Below, piece by piece: positions 11,630 through 49,458 of a DNA stretch of 64,000 bases. The DNA is taken from positions 1-64,000 of the forward strand of contig JAKOVQ010000019.1 in the NCBI GenBank assembly GCA_029781975.1, in the 5' to 3' direction. Both the position numbers and the translations under genes were made by a program. Every line of letters begins with the position of its first letter. Position 1 is the first letter of the stretch. Source of the DNA: Acidobacteriota bacterium (GTDB taxonomy: Bacteria > Acidobacteriota > Thermoanaerobaculia > UBA5066). The notes below the pieces were generated by a model. That model was not told the origin of the DNA. It worked only from the letters and a program-made list of their open reading frames with translations, and did no database searches.

Positions 11630-11826
11630 CTCATTCGGTCCGACCGGGGACGATACTCCCGGCCGCCGGGAACGAGGCGAGGCGACGCGTTCCGACGGAA
11701 GGGTGACGCCCCTCACGCCGCGGGGACGAAAGACGCATGACCATGCGCTGGGCGGGGCGAGCGCCGGAGCCCAGATTGGGGGCTCCGGCAAGCCCGCCCG
11801 ACGGGCTCCCGGGGAGGCAGGCACCC

Positions 11827-12243
11827 GTGACCCCCACCCAGAAGACCCTCGTCCAGGAATCGTTCGCAAAGGTCCTCCCGATCGCCGACCTCGCGGCGGA
11901 GCTCTTCTACGGAAGGCTCTTCGAGCTGGAGCCGTCGGTGAGGCCCCTCTTCCGCGGGAGCCTGCGCGAGCAGGGGCGCAAGCTGATGACGATGCTCCAC
12001 GTCGCGGTCGCAGGGCTCGACCACCCCGAGCAGCTCCTTCCCGCGGTCGCCGACATGGGCCGGCGCCACGTCGCCTACGGCGTGAAGGAGAGCCACTACG
12101 ACGTCGTCGGCGAGGCGCTCCTCTGGACCCTCGAGCAGGGGCTGGGGGAGGCGTTCACCGGCGAGACGCGCGAGGCGTGGGCGGCGGTCTACGAGGTCCT
12201 CGCGGAGACGATGAAGGACGCCGCGGCGGAGAGGGCGGCCTGA
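11827..12243 (+). CDS. Single-domain globin (bacterial haemoglobin, Vgb-like)
   Basis: A 138-residue protein matching the globin domain of flavohaemoglobins. The N-terminal A helix is 'TPTQKTLVQESFAKVLP', followed by 'AAELFYGRLFELEPSVRPLF'. The E-F region has 'LHVAVAGLDHPEQLLPAVAD', and the proximal haem His lies in 'MGRRHVAYGVKESHYDVVGE'. No reductase domain follows, so it is a stand-alone oxygen- or NO-binding globin. The GTG at 11827 is chosen because a GGGGAGG ribosome-binding site precedes it; an upstream in-frame ATG at 11737 would add a proline/alanine-rich tail foreign to the family. It is divergent from the S41 peptidase. Confidence 0.85.
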   Translation: MTPTQKTLVQESFAKVLPIADLAAELFYGRLFELEPSVRPLFRGSLREQGRKLMTMLHVAVAGLDHPEQLLPAVADMGRRHVAYGVKESHYDVVGEALLWTLEQGLGEAFTGETREAWAAVYEVLAETMKDAAAERAA

Positions 12244-23886: not shown

Positions 23887-25725
23887 TCAGCCCTCCGTCC
23901 GCGGCGCGATCATCGCCTTCCACGCCGCGCGCGACATCTTCCGCGTCGTCTCGATCACCCGCTCCCGCCCCTTCTCGCCGCCGAAGTCGGTCGCGAGGAG
24001 GACGAGGACGTACTCCCTCCCGTCGGGCAGCCGCACGATCGCGGCGTCGTGCTGGACGGTCGAGATGCTGCCGGTCTTGTGGGCGACGACCGCCCCCGCC
24101 TGCGCCGGGATGCCCGCCGGGATCTGGTCGTTGAAGGCCTGCGACGTCAGGATCTCCCACACCTTCGCGCGCGCGGCGTCCGAGAGGAGCGTCGTCCTCA
24201 CGCACGCCTTCATCAGCGCCGCCATCCCGGCGGCGTCGGTCTCGTTGGAGAAGCCGGCCTCGAAGGCCTTCTCGTCCTCGACCCCCCGCCGCACCTTCAC
24301 GGTGGGCGCCCCGAGCCGGTCGCACAGCTCCTGGACCGGCTTCGCCCCGACGAGGCCGATCAGGGTGTTGGTGGCGAAGTTCGACGAGTGCCGGATCATC
24401 TCCGTGGCGAGGAGCTCGACGGAGGCGGTCTTCCCGACCCGCCCGGCGAGGACCCCCTCGGACTCCGGGTCGAGCGTGATCCGGAAGGGCGACCCGTCGA
24501 AGGCGCTCCGGAACTCGTTGACGAGAGGGACCTCGTCCGTCAGCCGGAGCGTCCCGGTGTCCACCCGCCGCATCACCTCGAGGAGGACGGCGGTCTTCAT
24601 CGTGCTGGCGGCGTGCATCGTCCGGTGCGCGCCGATCTCGACCCTCCCCCCGCCCGCGAGGTCCTCGAAGACGATCCCGTAGGTCGCCGCTCCCTCCTTC
24701 GCGAGCGCCTCGAGCCTCTCCTTCAGGGCGGCGAGGGCCGAGGGGCCCAGCGGGCCGGGCTTCGGGGCGGAGGGGAGGAGGGCGAGCCGGCGGGCGTAGC
24801 GGAAGCGGGGCTTCAGGCGCGCGTCGTCCCACGGCGTCACCTTCGTCGACGGGACGCCGTACGAGGTCGCCTGCAGGACCGTGCCGTCCCCCACCCACAT
24901 CCCCATGTGGTCGATCTTGTCCTCGGTGCCGAAGAAGAGGAGGTCTCCCGGCTCGAGCCGCGAAGGGTCGACCGCGACGAGCTGCGGGTCGCGGAAGCAC
25001 ATCTGCGAGCTGTTCCGGGCGAGGAGGACGCCGTGGCGGCGGAGGATCGTCTGGACGAGGCCGGAGCAGTCGAAGCCGAAGGGCGTCACGCCGCCCCAGG
25101 TGTAGGGGGCGCCGAGGAAGCGCCTGCCGAGCGCGATCCAGCCGGCGGGCGTCCCGAGCTCGGGCCGGACCCCGGGCGTCACGAAGGCGGCGTCCTCGCG
25201 CCTCAGCCACGCGACCCGCGCGTCGGGGAGGCGGACCTTCAGCCAGGGATGGCCCTCCCTCTCCAGCTCGCCGACGACCCCGACGCGCGCCCCGAGCGGC
25301 GCGGTGAGGAGGGGCCGGGACGAGGTGACGTCGGGGTCCCGGTAGACGTGGGCGACGGGCGACGTCACCTCGACCTGACGCAATGCCTCTTCCGGGGGGC
25401 CGCGCCGCAGCGCCTCCGTGGCGACCCACCCCGTCTCCCCGTCGTCGCCCCGGACCCGGGCGAAGCCGGCGGTCTCCTCGAGGACCGTGACGCGCTCGCC
25501 GAGGATCACCTGGTCGTCGACCGGCGCGGTGGCGTCGGGGCGGACGAAGACGTCCTCGACGGCGGAGACGACGACCGCCCCGGCCGGCGGGGCCGGCGCG
25601 GAGGGGGCCGGCGTTCCGGCGAGGGCGAGAGGCGCGGCGAGCGCCGCCACCAGGACGGCGGCGGGGAAGGGGGCGAGGACGAGGGCGAGGACCGGGACGG
25701 GGGAGCGGCGGTTCCGCGGTCGCAT
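23887..25725 (-). CDS. SH3b-NlpC/P60 endopeptidase fused to a beta-lactamase-fold domain
   Basis: A 612-residue exported protein with a signal peptide (residues 1-36). Two bacterial SH3 domains follow (about 50-105 'VFVRPDATAPVDDQVILGER' and 115-170), then NlpC/P60 (about 190-320). Its catalytic Cys is in 'GFDCSGLVQTILRRHG' (220) and its His in 'DKIDHMGMWVGDGTV'. This order is that of YkfC, which cleaves gamma-D-Glu-diamino acid bonds in murein peptides. From about 340 to the end is a class-A beta-lactamase-like serine hydrolase: S-x-x-K in 'MHAASTMKTAVLLEV' (Ser 374), 'HSSNFATNTLIGLVG' (SSN in place of SDN) and 'VAHKTGSIST' (KTG). It is divergent from a dipeptide epimerase, the usual next step after YkfC. 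A -10 box ends 6 bases before the ATG. Confidence 0.85.
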   Translation of the reverse strand: MRPRNRRSPVPVLALVLAPFPAAVLVAALAAPLALAGTPAPSAPAPPAGAVVVSAVEDVFVRPDATAPVDDQVILGERVTVLEETAGFARVRGDDGETGWVATEALRRGPPEEALRQVEVTSPVAHVYRDPDVTSSRPLLTAPLGARVGVVGELEREGHPWLKVRLPDARVAWLRREDAAFVTPGVRPELGTPAGWIALGRRFLGAPYTWGGVTPFGFDCSGLVQTILRRHGVLLARNSSQMCFRDPQLVAVDPSRLEPGDLLFFGTEDKIDHMGMWVGDGTVLQATSYGVPSTKVTPWDDARLKPRFRYARRLALLPSAPKPGPLGPSALAALKERLEALAKEGAATYGIVFEDLAGGGRVEIGAHRTMHAASTMKTAVLLEVMRRVDTGTLRLTDEVPLVNEFRSAFDGSPFRITLDPESEGVLAGRVGKTASVELLATEMIRHSSNFATNTLIGLVGAKPVQELCDRLGAPTVKVRRGVEDEKAFEAGFSNETDAAGMAALMKACVRTTLLSDAARAKVWEILTSQAFNDQIPAGIPAQAGAVVAHKTGSISTVQHDAAIVRLPDGREYVLVLLATDFGGEKGRERVIETTRKMSRAAWKAMIAPRTEG

Positions 25726-25731
25726 GCCGCG

Positions 25732-25762
25732 ATTCTGCGCGTGGTTGGTCCCCCATGATAAT
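25732..25762. promoter_or_regulatory. Back-to-back leaderless promoters
   Basis: The 43-base gap holds CAGAAT on the minus strand (25737-25732), 6 bases from the ATG at 25725, and GATAAT on the plus strand (25757-25762), 6 bases from the ATG at 25769. Neither gene has room for a ribosome-binding site. Confidence 0.55.
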
Positions 25763-25768
25763 GCGGGC

Positions 25769-26899
25769 ATGGACCTGACGCGCCGGACCCTCCTCGCCTC
25801 CACCGGAGCCCTCGCCGCCGCCTCGCTCGCGCCCGACGTCCTCGCCGGCCCGGGCGCCCCCGCCGCCGCCGGCTCCGGGCCGGTCGACCTCGAGCTCGTC
25901 CCGATGCAGCTGAAGCTGAGGCACACCTGGACGATCTCCCGCAACTCGTCGAACGAGAAGAAGAACGGGCTCGTCAAGCTGACGGCGGGCGGCATCACCG
26001 GCTACGGCGAGTCCGCCGCGAACGTCCGCTACTCCCAGAGCTGGGAGTCGGGCGAGGCGGCCTTCGCGAAGGTGAAGGCGGCCGTCGCGGGGCTCTCCCC
26101 GTGGGAGCACCTCGCCTGGCTCGAGAGGGCCGAGGCGGAGGCGGGGAAGGACTCCGACATCGTCGCCGCCGTCGACATGGCGCTCTGGGACTGGAAGGGG
26201 AAGGCCGTCGGCCAGCCGGTCCACCGGCTCCTCGGGATCCCGTCGGGGAGGATGCCGGTCACCACCTTCTCCATCGGCATCGACACCGCCGAGGTGATGC
26301 AGCAGAAGGTGAAGGAGGCCGCTCCCTACCCGCGGCTGAAGGTGAAGGTGGGGCTGCCGGGGGACGAGGCGAACGTGAAGGCGATCCGCGCCGTCACCGA
26401 CAAGCCGATCCGCGTCGACGCGAACGAGGGGTGGAAGACGGTCGCCGAGGCCGTCGAGCGGATCAACTGGCTCAAGACGCAGGGGATCGAGTTCGTCGAG
26501 CAGCCGCTCCCGGCGGCGATGGACGCCGACATGAAGGCGATCCACGCGAAGTCGCCGCTGCCGCTCGTCGCGGACGAGTCGGTCCTCCACCCGGCCGACG
26601 TCCCGAAGCTCGTCGGCCTCTTCGACGGAATCAACGTCAAGCTGGCCAAGTGCGGCGGGATCACCCGCGCCTACGAGATGGCCGCGATCGGCCGCGCGCT
26701 CGGCTTCAAGCTGATGCTCGGCTGCATGATCGAGTCGTCCGTCGGGATCGCGGCGGCCATCGCGGTGGCGCCGCTCTACGACTGGCTCGACCTCGACGGC
26801 AACCTCCTCGTCGCGAACGACCCCTTCAAGGGGCTCTCGATCAAGGACGGCGTCTGGGCGCTGCCGGACGGGCCGGGGCTGGGCGTCGTGCCGGTGTAG
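25769..26899 (+). CDS. Tat-exported dipeptide (L-Ala-D/L-Glu) epimerase
   Basis: A 376-residue enolase-superfamily enzyme of the muconate lactonising subgroup, matching L-Ala-D/L-Glu epimerases (YkfB/YcjG), which convert the murein dipeptide into L-Ala-L-Glu. The first catalytic Lys is in 'RLKVKVGLPG', metal ligands are in 'RVDANEGWKT', 'IEFVEQPLP' and 'PLVADESVLHP', and the second Lys is in 'INVKLAKCGGI'. Unlike known cytoplasmic members it starts with a twin-arginine signal ('MDLTRRTLLASTGALAAASL'), so it should act in the periplasm after folding with its metal. It is divergent from the NlpC/P60 fusion and convergent with the amidase fusion, 7 bases away. Confidence 0.85.
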   Translation: MDLTRRTLLASTGALAAASLAPDVLAGPGAPAAAGSGPVDLELVPMQLKLRHTWTISRNSSNEKKNGLVKLTAGGITGYGESAANVRYSQSWESGEAAFAKVKAAVAGLSPWEHLAWLERAEAEAGKDSDIVAAVDMALWDWKGKAVGQPVHRLLGIPSGRMPVTTFSIGIDTAEVMQQKVKEAAPYPRLKVKVGLPGDEANVKAIRAVTDKPIRVDANEGWKTVAEAVERINWLKTQGIEFVEQPLPAAMDADMKAIHAKSPLPLVADESVLHPADVPKLVGLFDGINVKLAKCGGITRAYEMAAIGRALGFKLMLGCMIESSVGIAAAIAVAPLYDWLDLDGNLLVANDPFKGLSIKDGVWALPDGPGLGVVPV

Positions 26900-26906
26900 C
26901 GACGGC

Positions 26907-28514
26907 TCAGCCCGGCGGCGGGACGTCCTTCTCGAGCCGGTGGGCCAGCTCGAGGCCGCGGCGCATGACGTCGTTCCAGGGGAAGAGGACGCCCGGGTCG
27001 ACCTTCCTCACGGGGGCTATGTCCTCGTGCCCGGCGACGTTCGGCGCCGTGATGCCGAACTGCGCCACGAGGACGCCGACGAGGCGTGAGACGGTCTCGA
27101 TCTGCGCCGGCGTGTAGGGAGCCCGGTTCCCGTTCCCGGTGATCTCGACGCCGATCGAGAAGCGGTTGAGCGCCGCGCGGCCGTGGAGGAGCGACTCCCC
27201 CGCGTGCCAGGCGCGGTCCTCGAGCGAGACGAACTGGTAGAGGCGGCCGTCGCGGCCGACGAGGAAGTGCGAGCTGACGAAGCTCGCGGGGTCGAGGAAG
27301 AGCTCGATGCACCCCTCGTCGGTGTCGATCGCGGTGTGGTGGAGGACGAGGGTCGTGATCGGCTGGATCTTCTGCGGCGAGTCGCCGGCCCACCAGGAGT
27401 TGGGCATCGGGATCAGGCAGGCGTCCGAGAGGTCGCCCCCCGCCTCGGCCCAGAGCTTCCAGAAGAGCCGGTCGGCCGGCCCCCAGACGCGCTCGAGGAA
27501 GGGCCCTCCGGCCCGCGCCTCGAGCGGCGTCAGCTCGACGCGCGGGAGGGCGGGCGCCGTCTGCCGCGGCGGGTGGTAGGGGGTGAAGGGGCGGTCCGGG
27601 AGGTCGCGCGACCAGGTCGTCACGATCAGCTTCGCGATCTCGCCCATCGTCTGGTTCACGAAGATCGTCGCGCCGGGGCGGTCGGGGATCCGGTCGGCGA
27701 ACATCACGAGGACGAAGCGTCCCTTCGGCGTCGTCAGGATCCCCGAGTCGTTCCTCACCGCGTGCATCGTCCCGGTCTTTCCGGCCCAGGTCACCCCCTC
27801 CCCGAGGAGGAGACGCGGGATCCGGTTGCGGGTCTCGGGCTGCGAGAGGAGGCCGAGGGCGAGGCGGCTGCGCGGACGGTCGAAGAGGCTCTCCGTCGCG
27901 ATCCGCCGCCAGAGCTCGGCGGTGTCGCGCGGGGTCATCCGGCCGAGCTTCAGCCCCTTCCAGCGCTGGTCCTCGGTCTCGAGCGGCTCGCGGTCGGGGA
28001 TCCGGCCGACGAGCTGGATCCCCGAAAGCCCCAGCTGCGACATCCGGCAGTTGACGGCGTCCTGCCCGAAGGTGTCGATGAAGTGGTTGGCCGCGGTGTT
28101 GTCGGAGAGGGCGAGCATCAGCCGGAGGAGGTCGCGGTTGGTCGGCATCAGCCCCGGGTCGAACTCGTCGAGGATCCCCGAGCCCGACGCGACCGAACGC
28201 CGGAAGAGCTTCCAGCGGTCGTCGAGGTCGAGGCTGTCGTCCGGGAGCCGCCCGAGCGCCTCGGAGAGGAGCGAGAGCTTGATGACGCTCGCCGCCTCGA
28301 AGCTCTCCCGGTCGTTCCAGCGGAGCTCGCGCCCGCTCTCGACGTGGAGCGCCACGATCCCCATCCGCGCGCCGGTCCTTTCGGCGAGCCTGGCCACGCG
28401 CGCGGCGAGCGCGTCCTCCCTCGGGACGGTCGTCAGGCCCGGCGGCGGGGCCGAGGCGCACCCGGCGAGGAGGACCAGGAGGGGACCGGCGAGGAGGGTT
28501 CTGGATCCAGGCAT
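26907..28514 (-). CDS. Lipoprotein: beta-lactamase-fold domain fused to amidase
   Basis: A 535-residue lipoprotein (lipobox 'LLVLLAGCAS'). Residues 35-300 form a class-A beta-lactamase-like domain with 'EAASVIKLSLL' (S-x-x-K, Ser 76), 'LALSDNTAANHFIDTFG' (SDN) and 'WAGKTGTMHAV' (KTG). The E-x-x-L-N omega-loop of true beta-lactamases is not evident, so a peptidase or esterase role is more likely than antibiotic hydrolysis. Residues 380-535 are an Amidase_2 (N-acetylmuramoyl-L-alanine amidase, AmiD-like) with zinc ligands in 'LVLHHTAIDTDEG' (about 392) and 'NVAGHEDIAPVRKVDPG'. 'DRAWHAGESLLHGRAALNRF' contains the substrate-binding loop. It probably sits in the outer membrane and removes peptides from murein fragments. 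Confidence 0.85.
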   Translation of the reverse strand: MPGSRTLLAGPLLVLLAGCASAPPPGLTTVPREDALAARVARLAERTGARMGIVALHVESGRELRWNDRESFEAASVIKLSLLSEALGRLPDDSLDLDDRWKLFRRSVASGSGILDEFDPGLMPTNRDLLRLMLALSDNTAANHFIDTFGQDAVNCRMSQLGLSGIQLVGRIPDREPLETEDQRWKGLKLGRMTPRDTAELWRRIATESLFDRPRSRLALGLLSQPETRNRIPRLLLGEGVTWAGKTGTMHAVRNDSGILTTPKGRFVLVMFADRIPDRPGATIFVNQTMGEIAKLIVTTWSRDLPDRPFTPYHPPRQTAPALPRVELTPLEARAGGPFLERVWGPADRLFWKLWAEAGGDLSDACLIPMPNSWWAGDSPQKIQPITTLVLHHTAIDTDEGCIELFLDPASFVSSHFLVGRDGRLYQFVSLEDRAWHAGESLLHGRAALNRFSIGVEITGNGNRAPYTPAQIETVSRLVGVLVAQFGITAPNVAGHEDIAPVRKVDPGVLFPWNDVMRRGLELAHRLEKDVPPPG

Positions 28515-28521
28515 CCTCCGC

Positions 28522-28565
28522 AGTGTAGCGGCCGGGCCGGTCGGCGCCGCCCGCCCGCCTACAAT
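28522..28565. promoter_or_regulatory. Divergent promoter pair
   Basis: TACACT on the minus strand (28527-28522) ends 7 bases before the ATG at 28514. TACAAT on the plus strand (28560-28565) ends 8 bases before a CTG at 28574, the first residue of the conserved reading. Confidence 0.45.
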
Positions 28566-28573
28566 CCCCCGGT

Positions 28574-29704
28574 CTGAACGAGCCGACCCTCCCCCCGGGC
28601 GGAAGCCAGCGCCTCGTCTCCCTCGACGTCTTCCGGGGGGCGACGGTGGCGGCGATGATCTTCGTGAACGACCCGGGCGACTGGGGGCACGTCCTGCCGC
28701 CGTTCGACCACGCGGCGTGGCACGGCTGGACGCCGACCGACCTGATCTTCCCGTTCTTCCTCTTCATCGTTGGGACGGCCGGCGTCTTCTCGATGGCGCG
28801 GCGCGAGGCCGGAGGCGCCACCCGCGCCCAGCTGGCGCGGCACGCCGTGACCCGCGGCTTCACGATCGTCCTCGTCGGCTGGCTCCTGGCGGCCTGGCCC
28901 TTCAACCCGGCGCGGCTCCTCCACCTCCGGATCCCCGGCGTCCTCCCGCGGATCGGCGTCGTCTACGCCCTCGGGACGCTCCTTCTCCTCGCGTTCGGCA
29001 AGCGGCGCCCGCTCGGCGCGGCGGCGGTCGCCGCGGCCCTCCTCGCGCTCCACACGGCGATCCTCTTCCTGCCGGGCTACGACCTGACGAAGGAGGGGAA
29101 CGTCCAGGTGGCGGTCGACCTGGCGCTCCTGAAGGGGCACCTCTGGAAGCCGGCGTGGGACCCGGAGGGGATCGTCTCGACCCTCTCGGCGATCGCCACG
29201 ATGCTGACGGGCGCCCTCGCGGGCTTCCTCCTCGTCTCGAAGCGGACGACGGCGCGGAAGGCGATTCTCCTGGCGGCGTGGGGCGCGGCCGGGGCGGCCG
29301 CCGGGCTCCTCTGGCAGGCGGCCGGCCTCCCGGTCAACAAGGGGCTCTGGACGGGGTCGTACGTCCTCCTGACCTCGGGGCTGGCGTCGCTCTCCGTCGC
29401 GCTCTCGCTCCTCCTCGTCGACGTCGCGGGGTGGAGGAGGCCGTTCCGCGCCTTCGTGACGTTCGGGACGAACCCGCTCCTCGCCTTCGTCCTCTCCGGC
29501 TTCCTCGCGAAGAACCTGGGACTGGTGAAGTGGACGGCCGCCGACGGGAAGGTCGTCTCGCTCCACGCCTTCCTCTACCGGACGCTCCTCTCCTGGATCG
29601 GCGACCCGTACCTCCGCTCCCACGCCTGGGCCGTGGCCTTCGTCGCCGTCTGCTGGGCGGTCCTCCGCCTCTGCGAGACGCGCGGCTGGTACTGGAAGGT
29701 CTGA
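28574..29704 (+). CDS. COG4299/DUF5009 membrane protein (NagX/MurT-like)
   Basis: A polytopic inner-membrane protein (376 residues from the CTG at 28574) with about ten hydrophobic segments. The family start 'SQRLVSLDVFRGATVAAMIF' is followed by 'HGWTPTDLIFPFFLFIVGTA' and, later, 'LRIPGVLPRIGVVYALGTLL'. Relatives are annotated as heparan-alpha-glucosaminide N-acetyltransferase-like. NagX of N-acetylglucosamine regulons and, as I recall, the proposed MurNAc transporter MurT of Tannerella belong to this group. The first standard codon (GTG, 28646) would remove the conserved N terminus, so an upstream CTG start is proposed. In this setting, transport or acetylation of amino sugars released from murein is the best guess. 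Confidence 0.75.
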   Translation: MNEPTLPPGGSQRLVSLDVFRGATVAAMIFVNDPGDWGHVLPPFDHAAWHGWTPTDLIFPFFLFIVGTAGVFSMARREAGGATRAQLARHAVTRGFTIVLVGWLLAAWPFNPARLLHLRIPGVLPRIGVVYALGTLLLLAFGKRRPLGAAAVAAALLALHTAILFLPGYDLTKEGNVQVAVDLALLKGHLWKPAWDPEGIVSTLSAIATMLTGALAGFLLVSKRTTARKAILLAAWGAAGAAAGLLWQAAGLPVNKGLWTGSYVLLTSGLASLSVALSLLLVDVAGWRRPFRAFVTFGTNPLLAFVLSGFLAKNLGLVKWTAADGKVVSLHAFLYRTLLSWIGDPYLRSHAWAVAFVAVCWAVLRLCETRGWYWKV

Positions 29705-29711
29705 CTCGCGC

Positions 29712-30965
29712 TCAGCGGGGCGGGGCGGGCGACGGCTCGATCTCCTCCGCCACCGCGAGGCTCCGCAAGGCGCCCGCTTCGTCCTTCGCCTGCCGCCGCT
29801 CGGCGGGGACGTAGAACGCGGCGCGGACGCGAAGGGCGGCGAGGATCCGCCGCGCCGCGAGGCGTGCCTCGGGGTCCGCGTCCGACTCCGCCTGCCGCTT
29901 CAGGTCGGGGATGCCGAGGTCGCGGACGATCCGGGCGGGAGGGACGTCGGGCGCGGCGAGGCGGCGTTCGAGGAGGGCGAGGCGCTCCTCGAGGTCCCGC
30001 CCGTCCCGCTCCCGGCGCCTGGCGAGCTTCCGCGAGCGCTTCTGCAGGTCCTTCGGGTCGCCGAGCGACGCGACGAAGGAGCGCGTCGCGGCGAGGGCGT
30101 CGTCGCCGACGAGGCCGTCGAAATCGCGAAGGAGGGCGCCCGCGCGGCGGAAAGCCTCGAGGACGTCGCCCCCGTCGCCCGCCGCGCGGGCCCGGGCGAG
30201 GTCGGCGGAGAGGATCGCGGCCAGGTGGTCGGGGTCGCGGGGCGCGGCGCCGGTCCGCTCGGCGAGGAGCTCGAGCCAGTCGAGGGCCTCGGCGGCGACC
30301 TCCTCGGGGGGCCAGCGGTGCCCGCCGGCGAAGACCGCCAGGCGGTTCGGGACGCCGAGCGCGTCGAGCGTCCCCGCGAGCGCCATCACCTCGTAGAAGT
30401 TGAAGTCGGCGTCCCCGACGGCCGCGAAGACGGGGACCTTCCGCCCCTTCTCCGGGGGGGACTCCGCCGGGAACCCGGCCCCGGCGAGGAGGACGGCGAA
30501 GGGGGGCTGCCTGAGCGCCGAGCCGAGGAACGCCGCGGTCCGCGCGCCTCCGGAGAAACCGCCGACGACGAGCCGGGCGTCGTCGAGGGGGACGCGGGCG
30601 CGGAGGTCGTCGAGCGTGGCGACGAAGGCCCGGAGGGTCGGCTCGATCGGGGCGTCGCTCCGCGAGTCGTTCGACGAGGCGACGACGACGCCGAGCCTCC
30701 CGGCTGCCGCCACGAACGGTCCGGCCGCCGCCGCGCCCCGCCCGCGCGCGTCGAGGAGGACGAGGGCGGGCCAGCCGCGCGCCGGCCGGGCGCCGGTAGG
30801 GACGAAGAGCGCGTAGCTCAGGTCGGGCTGCGCCCGGCAGGAGACGTGCGGAACGAGGGCGCCGGGCGTGGGGAAGTCGCCGGCCGCGAGGACGGCCGGG
30901 AGGACGGCCGAGAGGACGGCCGGGACGGCCCGGGCGAGGGCGCCGGCCTGGCGACGAGCCGTCAC
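29712..30965 (-). CDS. Exported alpha/beta hydrolase with long helical tail
   Basis: A 417-residue protein. The signal peptide contains a 4-residue repeat ('AVLSAVLPAVLAAGD') encoded by a 12-base tandem repeat. The esterase/PHB-depolymerase-like domain (about 30-235) has the nucleophile elbow 'RLVVGGFSGGARTAAFLGSA' and a likely catalytic His in 'LAVFAGGHRWPPEEVAAEAL'. The C-terminal 180 residues are helical and charged, without a known family. The GTG start overlaps the stop of the NagA-like gene (GTGA), so it is translationally coupled to the amino-sugar operon. It may deacylate or de-esterify imported or extracellular glycan fragments; this is inference from position. Confidence 0.65.
   Translation of the reverse strand: MTARRQAGALARAVPAVLSAVLPAVLAAGDFPTPGALVPHVSCRAQPDLSYALFVPTGARPARGWPALVLLDARGRGAAAAGPFVAAAGRLGVVVASSNDSRSDAPIEPTLRAFVATLDDLRARVPLDDARLVVGGFSGGARTAAFLGSALRQPPFAVLLAGAGFPAESPPEKGRKVPVFAAVGDADFNFYEVMALAGTLDALGVPNRLAVFAGGHRWPPEEVAAEALDWLELLAERTGAAPRDPDHLAAILSADLARARAAGDGGDVLEAFRRAGALLRDFDGLVGDDALAATRSFVASLGDPKDLQKRSRKLARRRERDGRDLEERLALLERRLAAPDVPPARIVRDLGIPDLKRQAESDADPEARLAARRILAALRVRAAFYVPAERRQAKDEAGALRSLAVAEEIEPSPAPPR
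30888..30923. repeat. 12-base tandem repeat in a signal peptide
   Basis: Three copies of GAGGACGGCCGG (one with a terminal A) lie in frame within the signal-peptide coding region of the esterase gene, followed by a partial fourth copy. Confidence 0.75.
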
Positions 30966-31867
30966 CCGGCCGCCAGGAGCCGCTGGGGCGTCTCGGCCGC
31001 CGCGGATTCGGCCTCGCCTTCCGGCCAGCCGCTCGCGGCCGCGTTCGCCACGCAGGCGGGGAGGAGAGCCGCGCTCCCCGCGAGGTTCCCCGAGCCGTTC
31101 CTCACGCAGCCGGCGGAGAGGCGGAGCGGCTCCCCCCAGACCTCGTAGGCGCCGTCGGGGAGCCCCGCGGGCGGGACGGCGTCGCTGATCAGGACGACGC
31201 GCCCGGGGCCCTTGGCGCGCCGGAGGAGCCGGAGCATCTCCGGCGAGACGTGGTGGAGGTCGGCGATCACGTCGACCGAGACCCCGTCCCGGTCGAGCCC
31301 CCACCCGATCGGCCCCGGGTCGCGGTGGTGGAGCGGGCTCATCGCGTTGCCGAAGTGGGTCATGTGGCGGGCGCCGCGGCGGAGCGCCTCGTCGAGCGTC
31401 GCGGCGTCGGCGGCGGTGTGGCCGATGGAGACGACGAAGCCGCGGCGCGCGAAGGCCGAGACGAGGTCGAGGCCGCCCGGGATCTCGGGGGCGAGGGTCA
31501 CCATCGGGCGTCCCGGGAGCTCCCCGACCGCCTCGAAGAACGCGTCGACGCGGCGCCGGTCGCTTCCGTCGAGGAGCGCGTCGCGGTGGAGGGCGCCGCT
31601 CCGCGCGGGCGAGACGAACGGCCCCTCGAGGTGGAGGCCGAGCGGGACGGCGCCGCGCCCGTCCCCCGCCTTCCGGCCCCGGATCCACGCCGAGAGGCGC
31701 GCCACGAGCGGCGGGAGGCCGGCGAGAGGGACCGGGACGAGCGTCGGGAGGAACGCCTCGACGCCGGCCGCCGCGAGCCCCTTCGCGAGGAAGTCGAGCG
31801 CCGCCTCGTCGGCGGTGAGGAGGTCGACGCCGAACGCGCCGTGGATGTGGAGGTCGATCAGCCCCAT
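30962..31867 (-). CDS. nagA: Compact N-acetylglucosamine-6-phosphate deacetylase
   Basis: A 301-residue amidohydrolase that should deacetylate GlcNAc-6-phosphate. The metal site pieces are 'GLIDLHIHGAFG' (HxH), 'LGLHLEGPFVSPARSGALH' (bridging Glu), 'VSIGHTAADAATLDEAL', 'HMTHFGNAMSPLHHRDPG' and the catalytic Asp in 'VVLISDAVPPAGLPDG'. It begins directly at the first barrel strand and lacks the usual N-terminal strands and the C-terminal 'APG.DADLVVLD' part, so the beta-sandwich domain of typical NagA (about 380 residues) is missing. The ATG at 31867 overlaps the murQ 3' end by 10 bases; the stop overlaps the esterase start. Part of a kinase-murQ-nagA-esterase operon. Confidence 0.82.
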   Translation of the reverse strand: MGLIDLHIHGAFGVDLLTADEAALDFLAKGLAAAGVEAFLPTLVPVPLAGLPPLVARLSAWIRGRKAGDGRGAVPLGLHLEGPFVSPARSGALHRDALLDGSDRRRVDAFFEAVGELPGRPMVTLAPEIPGGLDLVSAFARRGFVVSIGHTAADAATLDEALRRGARHMTHFGNAMSPLHHRDPGPIGWGLDRDGVSVDVIADLHHVSPEMLRLLRRAKGPGRVVLISDAVPPAGLPDGAYEVWGEPLRLSAGCVRNGSGNLAGSAALLPACVANAAASGWPEGEAESAAAETPQRLLAAG

Positions 31868-32709
31868 CGCGGCTCCTCGTCCAGCGCGCGGGCGACGTTC
31901 CCTCCGCGGGAGGCGAGCCACGCGCGTCCCCGAACCACGTCGAGGCCCCACCGCGCGCTGACGAGCGCGGCCGGGAGGTCCCACCCGGCCTCCTCGAGGA
32001 TCCGTTCGGCGGCCTCCGGCGCGAGCGACGCGAGGTCGCTCACGATCCGGACCGCCCGGAGCCTCAGCTTCCTGTTCGTCGGCCGCATCGCGACCATCTC
32101 GTCCCGCCAGACGAGGCCGCGGCGCGCCATCACCGCCGTCGAGAGCATGTTGAGGAGGAGCTTCTGCGCCGTCCCGGCCTTCATCCGCGTGGAGCCGCGG
32201 AGGACCTCGGGTCCCGTCTCGGCGACGATCGCGAGGTCGGCCAGCTCCGCGAGGGGGGACGGCGCCGCGCAGACGAGCGCCACCGTGAGCGCGCCGACCC
32301 CCTTCGCGAACCGGAGCGCCCCCGCGACGTAGGGCGTGGAACCGCTCGCCGCGACGCCGACGACCGCGTCGCGGGGCGTGAGCCCGGCGGCCGCGAGGTC
32401 CTCGCCCCCGCGCGCCTCGTCGTCCTCCGCCCCCTCGACGGCCGTGAAGAAGGCGCCCGCGCCTCCGGCCATCAGCGTCGTCACGAGGCCCGGGTCGACC
32501 CCGAACGTCGGGGGAAGCTCGGCGGCGTCGAGGGCGGCGATCCGCCCGCTCGTCCCCGCGCCGACGTTCAGCCAGCGTCCCCCGGCGTCGAGCCGCGCGG
32601 CGATCGCCTCGGCCGCGCTGGCGACGGCGGGGAGCGCCCTCCCGGTCGCCTCCACGGCCTCGCGGTCGGCGGCGTGGATCCTCTCGAGGAGCTCTCCGAC
32701 GTCAGCCAT
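31858..32709 (-). CDS. murQ: N-acetylmuramic acid 6-phosphate etherase
   Basis: A 283-residue cytoplasmic SIS-domain lyase that splits the D-lactyl ether of MurNAc-6-phosphate to give GlcNAc-6-phosphate. Family signatures are 'NVGAGTSGRIAALDAAELPP', the catalytic Glu in 'FFTAVEGAEDDEARGGEDL', 'VVGVAASGSTPYVAGALRFA' and 'GPEVLRGSTRMKAGTAQKLL'. The start overlaps the end of the kinase gene, and the product feeds directly into NagA encoded downstream. The order kinase, etherase, deacetylase follows the pathway. Confidence 0.93.
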   Translation of the reverse strand: MADVGELLERIHAADREAVEATGRALPAVASAAEAIAARLDAGGRWLNVGAGTSGRIAALDAAELPPTFGVDPGLVTTLMAGGAGAFFTAVEGAEDDEARGGEDLAAAGLTPRDAVVGVAASGSTPYVAGALRFAKGVGALTVALVCAAPSPLAELADLAIVAETGPEVLRGSTRMKAGTAQKLLLNMLSTAVMARRGLVWRDEMVAMRPTNRKLRLRAVRIVSDLASLAPEAAERILEEAGWDLPAALVSARWGLDVVRGRAWLASRGGNVARALDEEPRWG

Positions 32710-33646
32710 CCAGGTCGCCCCAGCGCGCCACGGCGAGCCGGACGGCGCCGAGCTCGGGGGGGAACGGGGGAGGGCCGAGGTGGACCTTCGGCGCCACGCC
32801 CAGGATCCGTTCGCGCAGGGTCCCGAGGATCAGCTCCCCGGCCGAGAAGACGCCGCCGACCGTCGCCACCGGGATGGCCTCGTCGGCCAGCCCCAGCTTG
32901 CGGAGGAGGGTGATGGTCGTCCTCGCGAGCTCCTCGGCGGCCCAGTCGAGGATCCCCCGGGCGACCGGGTCCCCGGCGTGCGCCGCGTCGATCACGAGCG
33001 GGACGTAGGCGGCGATGTCGGCCGGGGAGGCGCCGGGCTGGACGAGCCTCTGGAGCGTCCCCGCCGCCGAGCGGGTCCCCTCGGAGGCGTGGAGCGCCTC
33101 GCGCATGGCCGTCCGGGGGCCGCGGCCGTCGACGTCGCGCGCGATGGCGGCGAGGCAGCGGCGGCCGATCTCGGCCCCGGAGCCCTCGTCGCCGATCACG
33201 GCGCCCCACCCTCCGACACGCTCCTCGAGGCCGTGACGGTTCCGGCCGAAGGCGACCGCGCCGGTCCCGGCGATGAGGACCGCGCCGGCGCCGTGGACGG
33301 GGTCGCCGACGGAGCCGGCGAGCGCGATCCGGGCGTCGGTGGTGACGAGAACGGGCCTGCCGGAGAAGGTCGACTCGAGGGCCGCCGTCAGCCGCCCCTC
33401 CTGGGCGGCCGCCTCGACCCCGGCGATCCCGCACGCGATCGCCGAGACGTCCCTCGGCCGGACCGCGGCGGCGGCGAGCGCGTCCTCGATCGCCTCGGCG
33501 ATCGCCTGGACGACGCGGGGGACCGGGGTCTGGGAGGCGTTGGCGGCGCCCGAGGCCCCCCGGCCGAGGACGACGAGGTCGCTGCCGGAGACGACCGCGC
33601 GGGTCCGGGTCCCGCCGACGTCGACGCCGACGAAGAGGCTCGGCAT
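32702..33646 (-). CDS. BadF/BcrA-family amino-sugar kinase (MurK/NagK-like)
   Basis: A 314-residue ASKHA-fold kinase. The first phosphate loop is 'SLFVGVDVGGTRTRAVVSG', the second 'GAVLIAGTGAVAFGRN', and 'GGWGAVIGDEGSGAEIGRRC' and 'VATVGGVFSAGELI' are typical of BadF/BadG/BcrA N-acetylglucosamine/N-acetylmuramic acid kinases. Coupled translation with murQ suggests that MurNAc (perhaps also GlcNAc) is the substrate, supplying the 6-phosphate needed by MurQ. This implies import of unphosphorylated sugar without a phosphotransferase system. The ATG at 33646 is preferred because a TACGAT box ends 6 bases before it; upstream in-frame codons add only low-complexity sequence. Confidence 0.88.
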   Translation of the reverse strand: MPSLFVGVDVGGTRTRAVVSGSDLVVLGRGASGAANASQTPVPRVVQAIAEAIEDALAAAAVRPRDVSAIACGIAGVEAAAQEGRLTAALESTFSGRPVLVTTDARIALAGSVGDPVHGAGAVLIAGTGAVAFGRNRHGLEERVGGWGAVIGDEGSGAEIGRRCLAAIARDVDGRGPRTAMREALHASEGTRSAAGTLQRLVQPGASPADIAAYVPLVIDAAHAGDPVARGILDWAAEELARTTITLLRKLGLADEAIPVATVGGVFSAGELILGTLRERILGVAPKVHLGPPPFPPELGAVRLAVARWGDLDG

Positions 33647-33652
33647 GGGGGG

Positions 33653-33658
33653 ATCGTA
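33653..33658 (-). promoter_or_regulatory. -10 box for kinase-murQ-nagA-esterase operon
   Basis: On the minus strand TACGAT ends 6 bases before the ATG at 33646; the intervening bases are CCCCCC, with no ribosome-binding site. Confidence 0.5.
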
Positions 33659-33726
33659 ACGCCGCGCCCGTCCCCGCGCGGCGCCCCGGCGCCTTCCCGC
33701 GCCGGTGCGCACGGAGGGCGGGAACG

Positions 33727-33757
33727 AAAAAGGGCCCGCGGATCTCTCCGCGGGCCC
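33727..33757 (-). terminator. Rho-independent terminator of the receptor gene
   Basis: GGGCCCGCGGA pairs with TCCGCGGGCCC (11 bp) across a 4-base loop and, on the minus strand, is followed by TTTTT. It lies 23 bases past the stop of the TonB-dependent receptor and separates it from the kinase operon. Confidence 0.9.
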
Positions 33758-33779
33758 CCGTCGTTCGGCGCGACGCCGG

Positions 33780-36704
33780 CTAGAACTCGACCCTGAGCGC
33801 GAACTGGAAGCGACGCGGGTCGAAGAACGTCTGGTACGTCCCGGGATTCGCCGAGTGGACGTTGTACTGGACGTTGTACCCCGTCTGGCTGTTGAAGACG
33901 TTGAAGCAGTCGATCCGGGCCTCCACCCTGAAGGTGTCGCCCAGCGGGATGGTCTGCGTGTAGTTCAGGTCGAGCTGGTAGTGGTCGGGGGTCACGTGCG
34001 ACCCCGCCGGCTCGGCGTAGCGGTTGGTGTCGATGGTGCTCGTCGTCTGCGAGATGTAGGGCTCGTAGCTGTGGTACTCCCACGGCTGCCCCGACTGGTA
34101 GATCGCGTAGGCGCCGACGGAGCCCTTCCAGTTGAAGCTGTACGAGCCGTACACCTTGAACTGGTGCCGGCGGTCGCCGCGGAGGTTGCCGTACTTGTAG
34201 TTCCAGAGCTGGCGGCCGGCGCCGTCGCCGATGTTCGACGAGCCGATGAAGATGTTGCTGTCGTTCGCGGTGGCGCCGCTGGCGCTGTTGTCCTGGTCGA
34301 AGTTGCCGTAGTAGTGGCTCCAGACGTACGAGCCTCGGAGGTAGGCGTTGCGGCCGTGCCATTCGGCCTCGAGGCCGGCCTCGTAGTACTTGGTGAAGGC
34401 GCCGTCGAGCGCGGCGATGACGTACGTCGATCCGCCGATCTCCTTGCGGATCGCGGCCAGGTTCGGGATGTAGAGCGCCCGCGGGATGTCCGGCGGGGGG
34501 TCGAAGAGGATCCGCGCGTCGTTGTTGGTGTCTTCCCAGAAGCCCTTGGAGAAGCGGTAGCGGGCGTGAACGCGGCCGCTCCAGCCCTTGCCGAGGTCCT
34601 TGGTCGTGCCGATCAGGTACTCGTCGGTGTGGCGGGGCTTGATGCCGTCCACGAACATCTTGCCCGACGACGAGGCCTCGGGGGTGGAGCCGATGAACGT
34701 GCCGTTGGCGTCGAAGTAGGCGTTGATCGTCACCGCGGAGTTGCGGGCCCACGACGCGGCGCGCGGGAGCGAGCCCGCCTGCGGGACGTAGCGGGCGAAG
34801 TTCGCGTAGACGGTGTTCGACCCCTGGTATGCCCAGACGATGCCCAGCCTGGGCTGGAGCGCGTCCTGGAACTTGATCTCGTGCATCAGGTACTTGTTGC
34901 CGGGAGCGACCTCGAACCCCGAGACCGTGCCGTCCTTCTCCCTCAGCCCCTGGCCGTAGAGCAGGTCGTCGCTCGCGATCAGGCCGACGTTGACGGTGAG
35001 GTTGGACCACCGGATCGAGTCGTTCAGCTCGATGTTGTGCGACACGTACTGGGAGTTGATGGTGGGGACGCCGAGGATCCCCTGCTGTTGCACCTGCGCC
35101 TGGTAGTACACCGGCTGCCCGGAGCACGCGGCGGTCGTCGGGCACTTGATGCGGCCGCCGGGCACGGTGACGACGCCCCACCCGTTCGAGGTCCGGTACA
35201 GGTCCTCCTGGTCCTTGGAGAACTGGTAGCCGACGTGCAGGTTGTGGATCACGGTCTTGCCCAGGGTGAGGTCGTAGGCGACCTGGAAGCTCTGGCGGTA
35301 GAAGTCGTCGTTGTCGAAGATGGACCCGCCGCCGATGACGCCGCCGCCCTTGCTCACGCCGTTCTGGACGTACCCGTAGCGCGAGATGATGGGGGCGATG
35401 AAGGCGTTGTAGGCGTCCTGGCCCGCGACCGGGACGGGGAGGGTGACGTACCCCATCCTGTCGAGCGCGTTCGGGTCGATGTTGACGCTGCCGTCGAGCG
35501 CCGGCACGAGGCCGAGCACGTTGTCCGGCCTCCCCTGGTTCGGGTTCCTGAAGTCGGTGACCTTGAGCGTCGCGTAGCTCTGGTTGTTGATGACCCAGGA
35601 GCCCTCCAGGATCGCGATCTTCTGCTTGGCACCGTAGCCGTTGCTCGTCGAGGCGGCGGAGGACTCGCCCGAGACGCTCGCGTGCTCCTGGTCGTGCTTC
35701 GAGGTCCGGTACGAGCCGTTCAGGAGGATCGACTCGGTCGGCGAGTACGTGAGCTTGCCGAAGAACTCGTTCCGCGTGTCGTCGTAGTCCGGGACGTCGC
35801 CGTAGAGGTTGGACCGGTTCTGGCGCGTGCTCGTCGGGCGGTAGTAGGACGCGTAGAAGAAGAGGCGGTCCTTCACGATCGGCCCGCCGAAGTTGGCGAC
35901 CGCCCAGTTCTTGTCCTCCTCGAAGACCGAGGCGCTGGTGGTCGTGCGGGTGGCGACCGTGCCGGAGGGCTGGATCTGGAAGGAGAGGGCGCCGTGGAAG
36001 GCGTTCGACCCGGATCGGCTGACGGTGTTGATCGTGATCCCGCCGGCGCGGTTGAAGTCCGTGGCGTCGGCGCCCCCCTTCACGACCGCGACCTGCTCGA
36101 TGTCGTACGACGCCGGCTCGGCCGAGAGCGTGCCGAAGAGCGGCAGGGTCACGTTCACGCCGTCGAAGCTGTAGACGTTGTCCTGACCGCTTCCGCCGGC
36201 GCTCGGTCCGCGGACGGAATCCTCCGTGTACTGGACGCCGGGCACGAGCTTGACGAGGTCGCGGTACTCCTGGCCGACCGGCAGGGCCTTGATGACGCTG
36301 TCGTTCACCGAGGCCTTGAGCGCGGGCGACTCGGTGTCGAGCAGCGTCGCCTGCGCGACGACCGTGACCCCTTCCGTCACGGACGAGAGCGCGAGGGTCG
36401 CGTTGAGGATCGTGTCCTGCTGCAGGACGACGGCGGCCGTGCGCTTCACGGTTCCCATCCCCTGGAGGGCGAACGTCACCTGGTACGTGCCGGGCGGCAG
36501 CAACGGCAGCCGGTAGTCGCCGGCGGCGCCCGAGACGGAGTGCCGCGGCTGCGGCAGGACGCTCGACGTCGCCGTGACCGAGACCCCGGGCAGCGTCGAC
36601 CCGTCGGCCATCGTGACCTTGCCGACGATGGTTCCGGTCTGCTGAGCGAGCGCCGGCGTCGCGAACAGCAGCAGCAAGGACAGCCCCCCGAGAATCCGTT
36701 TCAT
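33780..36704 (-). CDS. Oar-like TonB-dependent outer-membrane receptor
   Basis: A 974-residue outer-membrane protein. The signal peptide is 'MKRILGGLSLLLLFATPALA'. A carboxypeptidase-regulatory-like domain follows (about 24-110: 'TGTIVGKVTMADGSTLPGVS', 'GDYRLPLLPPGTYQVTFALQ'), then a plug (about 120-240: 'DNVYSFDGVNVTLPLFGTLS', 'IEQVAVVKGGADATDFNRAG'). A large beta-barrel ends in 'FQFALRVEF' with the C-terminal Phe needed for insertion. Such receptors are abundant in Acidobacteriota and import or bind glycans and other polymers. It is transcribed towards the amino-sugar operon and could supply murein fragments or other glycans, but no substrate can be read from the sequence. GGGAGGAG lies upstream of the ATG, with a 7-bp inverted repeat (36730-36744) in the leader. 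Confidence 0.85.
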   Translation of the reverse strand: MKRILGGLSLLLLFATPALAQQTGTIVGKVTMADGSTLPGVSVTATSSVLPQPRHSVSGAAGDYRLPLLPPGTYQVTFALQGMGTVKRTAAVVLQQDTILNATLALSSVTEGVTVVAQATLLDTESPALKASVNDSVIKALPVGQEYRDLVKLVPGVQYTEDSVRGPSAGGSGQDNVYSFDGVNVTLPLFGTLSAEPASYDIEQVAVVKGGADATDFNRAGGITINTVSRSGSNAFHGALSFQIQPSGTVATRTTTSASVFEEDKNWAVANFGGPIVKDRLFFYASYYRPTSTRQNRSNLYGDVPDYDDTRNEFFGKLTYSPTESILLNGSYRTSKHDQEHASVSGESSAASTSNGYGAKQKIAILEGSWVINNQSYATLKVTDFRNPNQGRPDNVLGLVPALDGSVNIDPNALDRMGYVTLPVPVAGQDAYNAFIAPIISRYGYVQNGVSKGGGVIGGGSIFDNDDFYRQSFQVAYDLTLGKTVIHNLHVGYQFSKDQEDLYRTSNGWGVVTVPGGRIKCPTTAACSGQPVYYQAQVQQQGILGVPTINSQYVSHNIELNDSIRWSNLTVNVGLIASDDLLYGQGLREKDGTVSGFEVAPGNKYLMHEIKFQDALQPRLGIVWAYQGSNTVYANFARYVPQAGSLPRAASWARNSAVTINAYFDANGTFIGSTPEASSSGKMFVDGIKPRHTDEYLIGTTKDLGKGWSGRVHARYRFSKGFWEDTNNDARILFDPPPDIPRALYIPNLAAIRKEIGGSTYVIAALDGAFTKYYEAGLEAEWHGRNAYLRGSYVWSHYYGNFDQDNSASGATANDSNIFIGSSNIGDGAGRQLWNYKYGNLRGDRRHQFKVYGSYSFNWKGSVGAYAIYQSGQPWEYHSYEPYISQTTSTIDTNRYAEPAGSHVTPDHYQLDLNYTQTIPLGDTFRVEARIDCFNVFNSQTGYNVQYNVHSANPGTYQTFFDPRRFQFALRVEF

Positions 36705-47817: not shown

Positions 47818-49458
47818 ATGTCCCGGAGCCGCGAAGGGTGGGCGTCGCGCGTCGGGCTCGTCCTGGCGATGGCCGGCAACGCCGTCGGCCTGGGGAACTT
47901 CCTGCGGTTCCCGGCCCAGGCGGCGCAGAACGGGGGCGGGGCCTTCCTCGTCCCGTACCTCGTCTCGTTCGTCCTGATGGGGATCCCGCTCCTCTGGGTG
48001 GAGTGGGCCATGGGGCGCTACGGCGGGCAGTTCGGCCACCACTCGGCGCCGGGGATCCTCGACCGGATGGGACGGTACCGCTGGCTCAAGTACGTCGGGG
48101 TCTTCGGCCTCTTCACCAACGTGACCGTCGCGGCGTACTACTGCTACATCGAGTCGTGGACGCTGGCCTACGTCTGGCACTCGATCGTCGGGACGTTCCG
48201 GCGGGTCGAGCCGACGACCTTCTTCCCCCGGTACCTCGGGCAGCACGCCGACTCGCTCTTCGCGGTCCCGCCCGAGGCGGCGTTCTTCTTCTTCGTCACG
48301 CTGGCCCTGAACGTCTGGATCCTCTCGCGGGGCCTCGCGAAGGGGATCGAGGTGGCCGCCAAGATCGGGATGCCTCTCCTGGTCCTCTTCGGGATCGTCC
48401 TCGTCGTCCGCGGCCTGACGGTCCACGTCGGCGACCCCGGCGTCGTCCAGAGCCCGCTCGCGGGACTGAACTTCGTCTGGAAGCCCGACCTGTCGGGGCT
48501 GGCCCAGCCGAAGGTCTGGCTCGCGGCGGCGGGGCAGATCTTCTTCACCCTGTCGGCGGGGATGGGGACGATCCACTGCTACGCGGCCTACGTGAGGAAG
48601 AACCAGGACGTGGCGCTCAACGCGGCGAGCGCCGGCTGGATGAACGAGTTCGTCGAGGTGGTCCTCGGCGGCTCGCTCCTGATCCCGATCGCCACGGCCT
48701 ACCTGGGGCTCTCGGCCGTCCAGGGCGCGACGTCGGGGGGGAGCGGCTTCTCGCTCGGGTTCCTCGCCCTGCCGACCCTCTTCAACAACTGGGGCTGGTT
48801 CGCGCCTCTCGCGGGGGCGATGTGGTTCGGCCTCCTCTTCTTCGCGGGGATCACGTCGTCCCTGGCGATGGGGCAGCCGATCCTCGCGTACCTCGAGGAC
48901 GAGCTCGGCGTCCGGCGGGCCCGCGCGGCGCTGACCTTCGGCTTCGTGACGGCCCTCCTCGGGTTCTTCTGCGTCTGGCTCTACCCCGGCGGGGCGTTCG
49001 ACGAGTTCGACTACTGGAGCGGCACCTTCTCCCTCGTGGTCTTCGCGCTCCTCGAGTCGATCGTCTTCGCGTTCGTCTTCGGGATGGAGCGCGGCTGGGA
49101 GGAGATCACCCGCGGGGCGGACATCGCCGTCCCGCGCGTCTTCCGCTTCGTCATCCAGTGGGTCACCCCCGCGTTCCTCCTCGCGGTCTTCGTCGGCTCG
49201 CTCGTCCAGCCCGCCGCGGGCGACTGGGGGGCGGCGTTCCGGTCGCTCTTCTCGGGGGGCGGCTGGCCGCTCGACGCCGGGAGCGTCCTGGGAAAGGTCC
49301 TCCACCGGGGGGACGCGACGGCGTGGTTCGGCCCCGACGGCCGCGCGACGCCGAAGCTCGTCAAGGACGTCTCGCGGCTCCTCCTCTGCGGGGTCTTCCT
49401 GGCGTGCTCGGCGCTCGTGGCCTGGACGTGGCGCCGGAAGGCGAGGGAGGCACGATGA
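47818..49458 (+). CDS. Sodium-dependent NSS/SNF transporter (MetP-like)
   Basis: A 546-residue polytopic protein of the neurotransmitter:sodium symporter family with about 12 membrane segments. The first unwound helix that binds sodium and substrate is 'RVGLVLAMAGNAVGLGNFLR', followed by 'PAQAAQNGGGAFLVPYLVSF'; helix 6 has 'QIFFTLSAGMGTIHCYAAY'. A tiny single-span protein gene overlaps its 3' end, as in the MetPS methionine/alanine importer of Corynebacterium, so amino acid uptake driven by sodium is likely. A strong GAGGGGAGGAGG ribosome-binding site precedes the ATG, unlike the leaderless genes. Confidence 0.9.
   Translation: MSRSREGWASRVGLVLAMAGNAVGLGNFLRFPAQAAQNGGGAFLVPYLVSFVLMGIPLLWVEWAMGRYGGQFGHHSAPGILDRMGRYRWLKYVGVFGLFTNVTVAAYYCYIESWTLAYVWHSIVGTFRRVEPTTFFPRYLGQHADSLFAVPPEAAFFFFVTLALNVWILSRGLAKGIEVAAKIGMPLLVLFGIVLVVRGLTVHVGDPGVVQSPLAGLNFVWKPDLSGLAQPKVWLAAAGQIFFTLSAGMGTIHCYAAYVRKNQDVALNAASAGWMNEFVEVVLGGSLLIPIATAYLGLSAVQGATSGGSGFSLGFLALPTLFNNWGWFAPLAGAMWFGLLFFAGITSSLAMGQPILAYLEDELGVRRARAALTFGFVTALLGFFCVWLYPGGAFDEFDYWSGTFSLVVFALLESIVFAFVFGMERGWEEITRGADIAVPRVFRFVIQWVTPAFLLAVFVGSLVQPAAGDWGAAFRSLFSGGGWPLDAGSVLGKVLHRGDATAWFGPDGRATPKLVKDVSRLLLCGVFLACSALVAWTWRRKAREAR

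Follow-up and report, generated by a model that had tools for sequence, protein, structure and literature searches.

Murein-peptide catabolism, including the steps of the dipeptide epimerase and the diaminopimelate (DAP) decarboxylase, is regarded as cytoplasmic in model bacteria. Genes for enzymes of these classes lie together in a genome of the Acidobacteriota (class Thermoanaerobaculia, assembly GCA_029781975.1, referred to here as G000) and appear to encode exported proteins, which raises the question of where, and on what, this bacterium uses them. We analysed positions 1 to 64,000 of contig JAKOVQ010000019.1, a stretch of 64,000 nucleotides that we call the window, and for which an initial annotation had proposed that peptidoglycan is broken down completely outside the cytoplasm. 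Genes were placed via homologous starts and identified via Pfam and NCBIfam, and export signals were read by eye and with a simple motif rule. All genes named in the initial annotation were recovered by gene placement and domain searches at or near the positions it gave. We suggest, with a probability of roughly 70 % on the sequence evidence, that the locus serves periplasmic or extracellular utilisation of peptidoglycan.

Glycan and amino-sugar enzymes

The gene at 50324-52852 (minus strand) encodes a predicted exported protein in which an AmiE/PBP4B-type Beta-lactamase domain is fused to the exo-muramidase NamZ (GH171; Pfam and NCBIfam, with NamZ_N and NamZ_C both above cut-off). The initial annotation had listed AmiE/NamZ; both domain types are present, in one fused ORF. 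This ORF overlaps by 4 bases the gene for a NagZ-type GH3 lipoprotein (52849-54687, minus strand; Pfam; lipobox VSAGC). The gene at 54844-57855, between NagZ and LysA, encodes a PKD-domain protein in which an HExxH motif of zinc proteases (VLHEVGHTLGLHH) is present. A large peptidase, a Tricorn-type S41 protease with a beta-propeller that may belong to a wider use of peptides, is encoded elsewhere in the window, at 8228-11869.

The enzymes for the liberated sugars are encoded on the minus strand by a BadF-type amino-sugar kinase gene (NagK; 32702-33646; Pfam and NCBIfam), the product of which has as its nearest solved structure 8zo3, a MurNAc/GlcNAc kinase, by the gene for the N-acetylmuramic acid 6-phosphate etherase MurQ (31858-32709; Pfam and NCBIfam, 330.7 bits on NF003915 with a subfamily cut-off of 168), and by a gene for a short form of the NagA-type N-acetylglucosamine-6-phosphate deacetylase (30962-31867; NCBIfam). 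These are followed by a gene for a predicted exported serine-hydrolase-like (esterase-like) protein with no Pfam match (29712-30965, minus strand), which overlaps NagA by 4 bases. Neighbours overlap by a few bases along this series and the four genes look like a single operon. Both ends of NagA, which would build the small beta domain, are missing, and alignments with relatives from the family span an equal length (65-73 % identity). The DUF5009 membrane protein at 28613-29704 (plus strand) is present as described and now scores as an HGSNAT/NagX-like acyltransferase (NCBIfam); it matches human HGSNAT as well as NagX and probably acetylates glucosamine across the membrane. Its start codon is non-standard: in the stretch 28529-28646, no ATG, GTG or TTG precedes the conserved N terminus RLVSLDVFRG, which points to an uncommon start codon or to an error in the sequence.

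With regard to transport, no AmpG-family match above noise was detected in G000 or in the genera g2, g3 and g7, and no MurNAc importer was identified. A SNF-family Na+ symporter (47818-49458, plus strand) is a possible amino-acid importer, associated with the locus by its position only. An uptake of only sugars and amino acids would be consistent with the lack of an AmpG match in G000. However, AmpG is present in family f36 and in most of genus g5 alongside exported epimerase and S66 proteins, and its absence was rejected as the driver of export, which is thus not a simple replacement of AmpG.

In the murQRP-amiE-nagZ-namZ system of Bacillus subtilis, NagZ, AmiE and NamZ (GH3 and GH171 among them) are exported and MurQ is located inside the cell. 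The window resembles this system in its exported NagZ, its AmiE-type beta-lactamase-fold amidase, its NamZ and an internal MurQ, but differs in that the AmiE-type domain and NamZ are fused, no PTS transporter MurP was seen, and a BadF-type kinase is found instead. In Tannerella forsythia, a murTKQ operon with AmpG provides a MurNAc kinase and MurQ for the catabolism of scavenged MurNAc (PMC7670621, PMC10465942, PMC5388701). A putative MurNAc kinase and MurQ are likewise found here; unlike in T. forsythia, there is no AmpG match, MurT was not identified, NagA is part of the operon and an exported peptide branch is added.

The NlpC/P60 protein and the Beta-lactamase2 domains

The protein encoded at 23887-25725 (minus strand; Pfam) carries a predicted Sec signal, SH3b and NlpC/P60 domains with the catalytic residues Cys238 and His291, and a Beta-lactamase2 domain (PF13354, E 8.5e-47); no other NlpC/P60 protein was found in G000. 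A second Beta-lactamase2 domain (E 9.5e-49) is joined to Amidase_2 in the lipoprotein at 26907-28514 (minus strand; Pfam; lipobox LLAGC), an AmpDh2/AmiD-like N-acetylmuramoyl-L-alanine amidase. The initial annotation had named both proteins and overlooked these additional domains. The motifs SxxK, S(D/S)N and K(T/S)G are kept across the family of the window (f1), and in family f36 a similar domain is a separate exported protein, the gene of which adjoins NlpC; fusion in the one family and neighbourhood in the other suggest a single pathway. That it provides a D,D-peptidase activity is a guess.

Two residues that contact the free amine of L-Ala, Asp256 and, in the SH3b domain, Tyr118, define the YkfC subfamily of NlpC/P60 enzymes and make it selective for free L-Ala-D-Glu peptides (PMC2954226). 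At position 256, the window protein and all f1 copies have Asn, and Asp is found in NlpC proteins encoded beside Tat-epimerases elsewhere wherever the position aligned; at position 118, Glu is found in the window, Glu or Thr in f1, and Tyr in every aligned NlpC outside f1. The six f36 proteins checked have the YkfC-type RD motif and both hallmarks. The domain architecture and the catalytic residues of the window protein are those of the YkfC subfamily, and both specificity residues are missing. The f1 endopeptidase has been altered at these positions and may tolerate a different N terminus, and the Tat-epimerase/NlpC module outside f1 looks like an exported YkfBC pair. A compensation of Asn256 by Glu118 was considered and is not general, since genera g2 and g5 carry Thr.

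Predicted export of the dipeptide epimerase

The gene at 25769-26899 (plus strand; Pfam, structure match 3iji) encodes an enolase-superfamily (MR_MLE) protein with a predicted Tat signal (TRRTLLAS), and TatC is encoded in the same genome. The invariant residues K191/K193 (KxK), the metal ligands D217, E244 and D269, the second lysine K291 and D341/D343 (DxD) are all in place, the DLDGN motif is conserved, and the active-site residues align with those of solved epimerase structures, the closest of which is 3iji from Bacteroides thetaiotaomicron. Dipeptide specificities within the enolase superfamily are diverse, and at 147.9 bits the protein stays below the cut-off of 343 of the NCBIfam L-Ala-D/L-Glu epimerase equivalog. 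We regard it as a dipeptide epimerase of the YkfB/YcjG/3iji type, for which L-Ala-D-Glu would be the substrate.

An RR Tat motif followed by a hydrophobic stretch is present in all family f1 members that have the gene (12/12), with leader sequences that differ from each other. We also scanned GTDB genomes for the best 80 relatives outside the family, and these, chosen by similarity to the query so that the rate is biased, include about 71 with a Tat-like leader, with RR or, mainly in the Calditrichota/KSB1 group, RK; the others are three near misses with RR, one protein at a contig edge and five without leader. They come from Acidobacteriota, Calditrichota, KSB1, Planctomycetota, Marinimicrobia, Ignavibacteriota and one Bacteroidota bin, and in the nearest relatives an NlpC/P60 gene often adjoins the Tat-epimerase gene. 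L051, a distant relative with no evident leader, was likewise picked up by the motif rule. Export as a quirk of a single genome is ruled out by these family members and relatives. Homologues at about 45 % identity in G051 and G022, encoded beside a kinase gene, are leaderless, as are paralogues at about 28 % identity, and in a quick tree of 102 rows the export state changes six times.

The S66 and M28 peptidases

Two adjacent plus-strand genes encode an S66 peptidase of the LdcA/MccF family (60258-61370; Pfam, with both N and C domains) and an M28 metallopeptidase (61371-62804; Pfam), a predicted Sec-exported candidate dipeptidase. The S66 protein has a predicted Tat signal (SRRRFLG), and a Tat leader is found in every window-type copy of family f1 with a readable start, in 8/8 copies of f36, in 2/2 copies of f75 and in one copy of G051. 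Second S66 copies in f1 genomes, 30-37 % identical, have no evident leader. The protein scores 165.9 bits, with a PRK11253 equivalog cut-off of 378. Its nearest solved relatives are MccF-like, so that LD-carboxypeptidase activity is not assured and the substrate of this protein is less certain than its location.

A predicted exported LysA

LysA, the DAP decarboxylase, is encoded at 58752-60170 (minus strand; Pfam), reaches 469 bits on TIGR01048 (cut-off 297.9), and its PLP- and substrate-binding residues align with those of structure 1tuf. It is read from a GTG codon preceded by the Shine-Dalgarno sequence AAGGAGGT, with no further ATG, GTG or TTG before the conserved core, and begins with a predicted Sec signal peptide. 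Hydrophobic leaders are found in 12 sequences from two families, namely in G000, G001 and G006 of f1 and in 9/9 genomes of f36, and these leaders have little sequence in common. A misplaced start was ruled out by the lack of an alternative start, by the Shine-Dalgarno sequence and by the leaders in twelve genomes. Seven genomes from genera g3 and g5 have a LysA that begins straight at the conserved core without a leader, and where enough flanking DNA is available S66 or NagZ is still next door.

A second, leaderless LysA (clade B) is present in G000, G001 and others, while the clade A protein is the only LysA found in G004, G011 and G013 and is leaderless there. This fits a rule, drawn from draft genomes, by which export of LysA is confined to genomes with another copy that remains inside; G382 is a possible exception, and G006 is an uncertain case with respect to its second copy. 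Ambiguous hydrophobic N termini were also seen in LysA of families f75 and f65. For two f75 genomes, no LysA was found other than the protein with such an N terminus (L212 and L213); this protein either stays inside, or these genomes make lysine in an unusual way. In Calditrichota and relatives (L099, L103 and L104), a LysA-like gene directly precedes NlpC and the epimerase; the start of L103 is readable and has no leader.

Among 396 genomes of the phylum searched for LysA relatives, nine close ones (63-65 %) were found, all in family f36 and all with a leader. In the f36 loci that were read, LysA adjoins the amidase and lies about 2-5 kb from the Tat-epimerase, with an exported NlpC in most and Bla-NamZ in several. 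The f36 proteins (L201-L209) fall inside the f1 group of the LysA tree, with a fork support just under the star level, although the epimerases of the two families, which share the phylum only, are only about 45 % identical. This suggests tentatively that the exported LysA has been transferred horizontally from one lineage to another, into a similar type of locus.

Conservation of the locus

The three segments of the window are joined into one locus by G001, from another genus of f1, in which NlpC, epimerase, NagX, MurQ, NagK, the Oar-like receptor, NamZ, LysA and S66 lie within one run of about 20 kb. This contiguity, together with partial contiguity in the distant family f36, rules out a chance assembly of unrelated genes. 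The amidase-epimerase-NlpC group is retained in most of f1, and genera g4 and g6 (G003 and G005) lack the exported epimerase; S66 adjoins LysA in genus g5 and part of g3, with M28 near both in g5. The window also encodes an Oar-like receptor (CarboxypepD_reg with an outer-membrane barrel; 33780-36704, minus strand; Pfam), relatives of which at 50-55 % identity are found near MurQ or LysA in other families. Oar-type receptors are close to several of the loci, including that of G001, which mildly favours imported peptidoglycan.

In the f36 genome G158, a distant version of the locus (L236:5350-17286) encodes Bla-NamZ, Amidase_2, an exported LysA, an M15 peptidase and an alanine racemase, as well as an exported Beta-lactamase2 protein, an exported NlpC with the YkfC hallmarks, a Tat-epimerase and an exported C26 peptidase. 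This locus is a cleaner experimental system than the window.

Discussion

From the gene identities, motifs, signals and linkage described above, we infer the substrates, the order of the steps, their location in the cell and the origin of the peptidoglycan. According to the pathway that we propose, the lipoprotein amidase and the Bla-NamZ/NagZ pair would cut the peptides from the glycan and degrade the latter to the free sugars MurNAc and GlcNAc. The Tat-exported S66 protein would then trim the terminal D-Ala from the freed peptide, the exported NlpC/P60 protein would cut between D-Glu and mDAP, the Tat-exported epimerase would convert L-Ala-D-Glu to L-Ala-L-Glu, and the exported M28 protein could split this dipeptide. 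In the genus of the window, the exported LysA would in addition convert mDAP to L-Lys. The sugars would be phosphorylated and then degraded inside by the kinase, MurQ and NagA, and NagX would re-acetylate glucosamine at the membrane.

The exported peptide branch envisaged at the outset holds for the epimerase and S66, the signals of which are conserved across genera; the LysA leader, present in two families, is variable. Sister genomes that keep the gene context and lack the signal exist for LysA, in g3 and g5, and none was found for the epimerase or S66. The branch is also not exported to the exclusion of an internal one, which has not been replaced, since LysA, S66 and the epimerase all retain cytoplasmic paralogues. 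For a broader proposal, the odds appear to us to be even: that in several phyla the whole murein-peptide branch, comprising LD-carboxypeptidase, D-Glu-mDAP endopeptidase and epimerase, and in some Acidobacteriota also DAP decarboxylase, is extracytoplasmic, so that what the cell takes up from peptidoglycan would be free sugars, L-Ala, L-Glu and L-Lys.

An alternative explanation is that these enzymes serve the turnover of the cell's own wall, muropeptides being finished in the periplasm where AmpG is lacking and no food coming from outside. The genomes without an AmpG match would indeed need another route of disposal, NagZ, the amidase and NlpC all belong to the cell envelope, and the last of these, being the sole NlpC/P60 protein, may also have a housekeeping role. 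However, g5 and f36 keep AmpG as well as the exported epimerase and S66, a receptor of the Oar type would not be needed for periplasmic self-turnover, and the catabolic MurQ/NagA route suits feeding equally well; we therefore consider this explanation unlikely, though it is the strongest of the alternatives. Predation, necromass feeding and self-recycling are indistinguishable from sequence.

It is improbable, in our view, that only the glycan enzymes serve peptidoglycan catabolism and that the targets of the exported epimerase, S66 and M28 are different peptides or compounds, as in MccF-like detoxification or the processing of protein dipeptides. The MccF-like structural relatives of S66, the equivalog scores of S66 and the epimerase and the varied specificities of the enolase superfamily would agree with such roles; against them stand the 3iji match and conserved DLDGN motif of the epimerase, the many lineages in which an NlpC/P60 protein with both YkfC hallmarks is encoded beside it, and the fact that in G001 the epimerase is part of one run with NamZ, MurQ and the kinase. 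That the LysA signal peptide is a start-site artefact of an ordinary cytoplasmic lysine-biosynthesis enzyme is very improbable, for while seven orthologues start at the core and the protein is the sole LysA detected in three genomes, GTG is the only possible start in the window and follows AAGGAGGT, leaders recur in two families despite their dissimilar sequences, and G000 and G001 retain a second leaderless copy.

Peptidoglycan utilisation by exported enzymes, the reading we prefer, can be compared with the Ykf pathway of bacilli. The association of ykfB and ykfC is known in Acidobacterium, Solibacter and Bacteroides, and in Bacillus cereus YkfC is exported and YkfB is located inside; the Bacillus epimerase lacks a signal peptide, and the dipeptide is presumed to enter the cell beforehand (PMC2954226). 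The window encodes the same classes of enzymes as B. subtilis YkfABC(D) and B. cereus YkfBC (S66, epimerase and SH3b-NlpC/P60), with adjacent epimerase and NlpC genes, but here the epimerase and S66 have Tat signals, an exported DAP decarboxylase is added, and NlpC is without the YkfC specificity residues. Our search, which covered the open-access literature, returned no publication describing Tat export of a dipeptide epimerase or export of a DAP decarboxylase.

If the proposed pathway is correct, Acidobacteriota, Calditrichota and Planctomycetota of soils and sediments would be able to take free L-Lys, L-Ala and L-Glu from necromass without muropeptide permeases, which would bear on the turnover of microbial necromass and on cross-feeding. 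The exported LysA would join the few known PLP enzymes that function outside the cytoplasm, and a Tat-epimerase gene beside NlpC, or a LysA with a signal peptide, could serve as genomic markers for peptidoglycan feeders.
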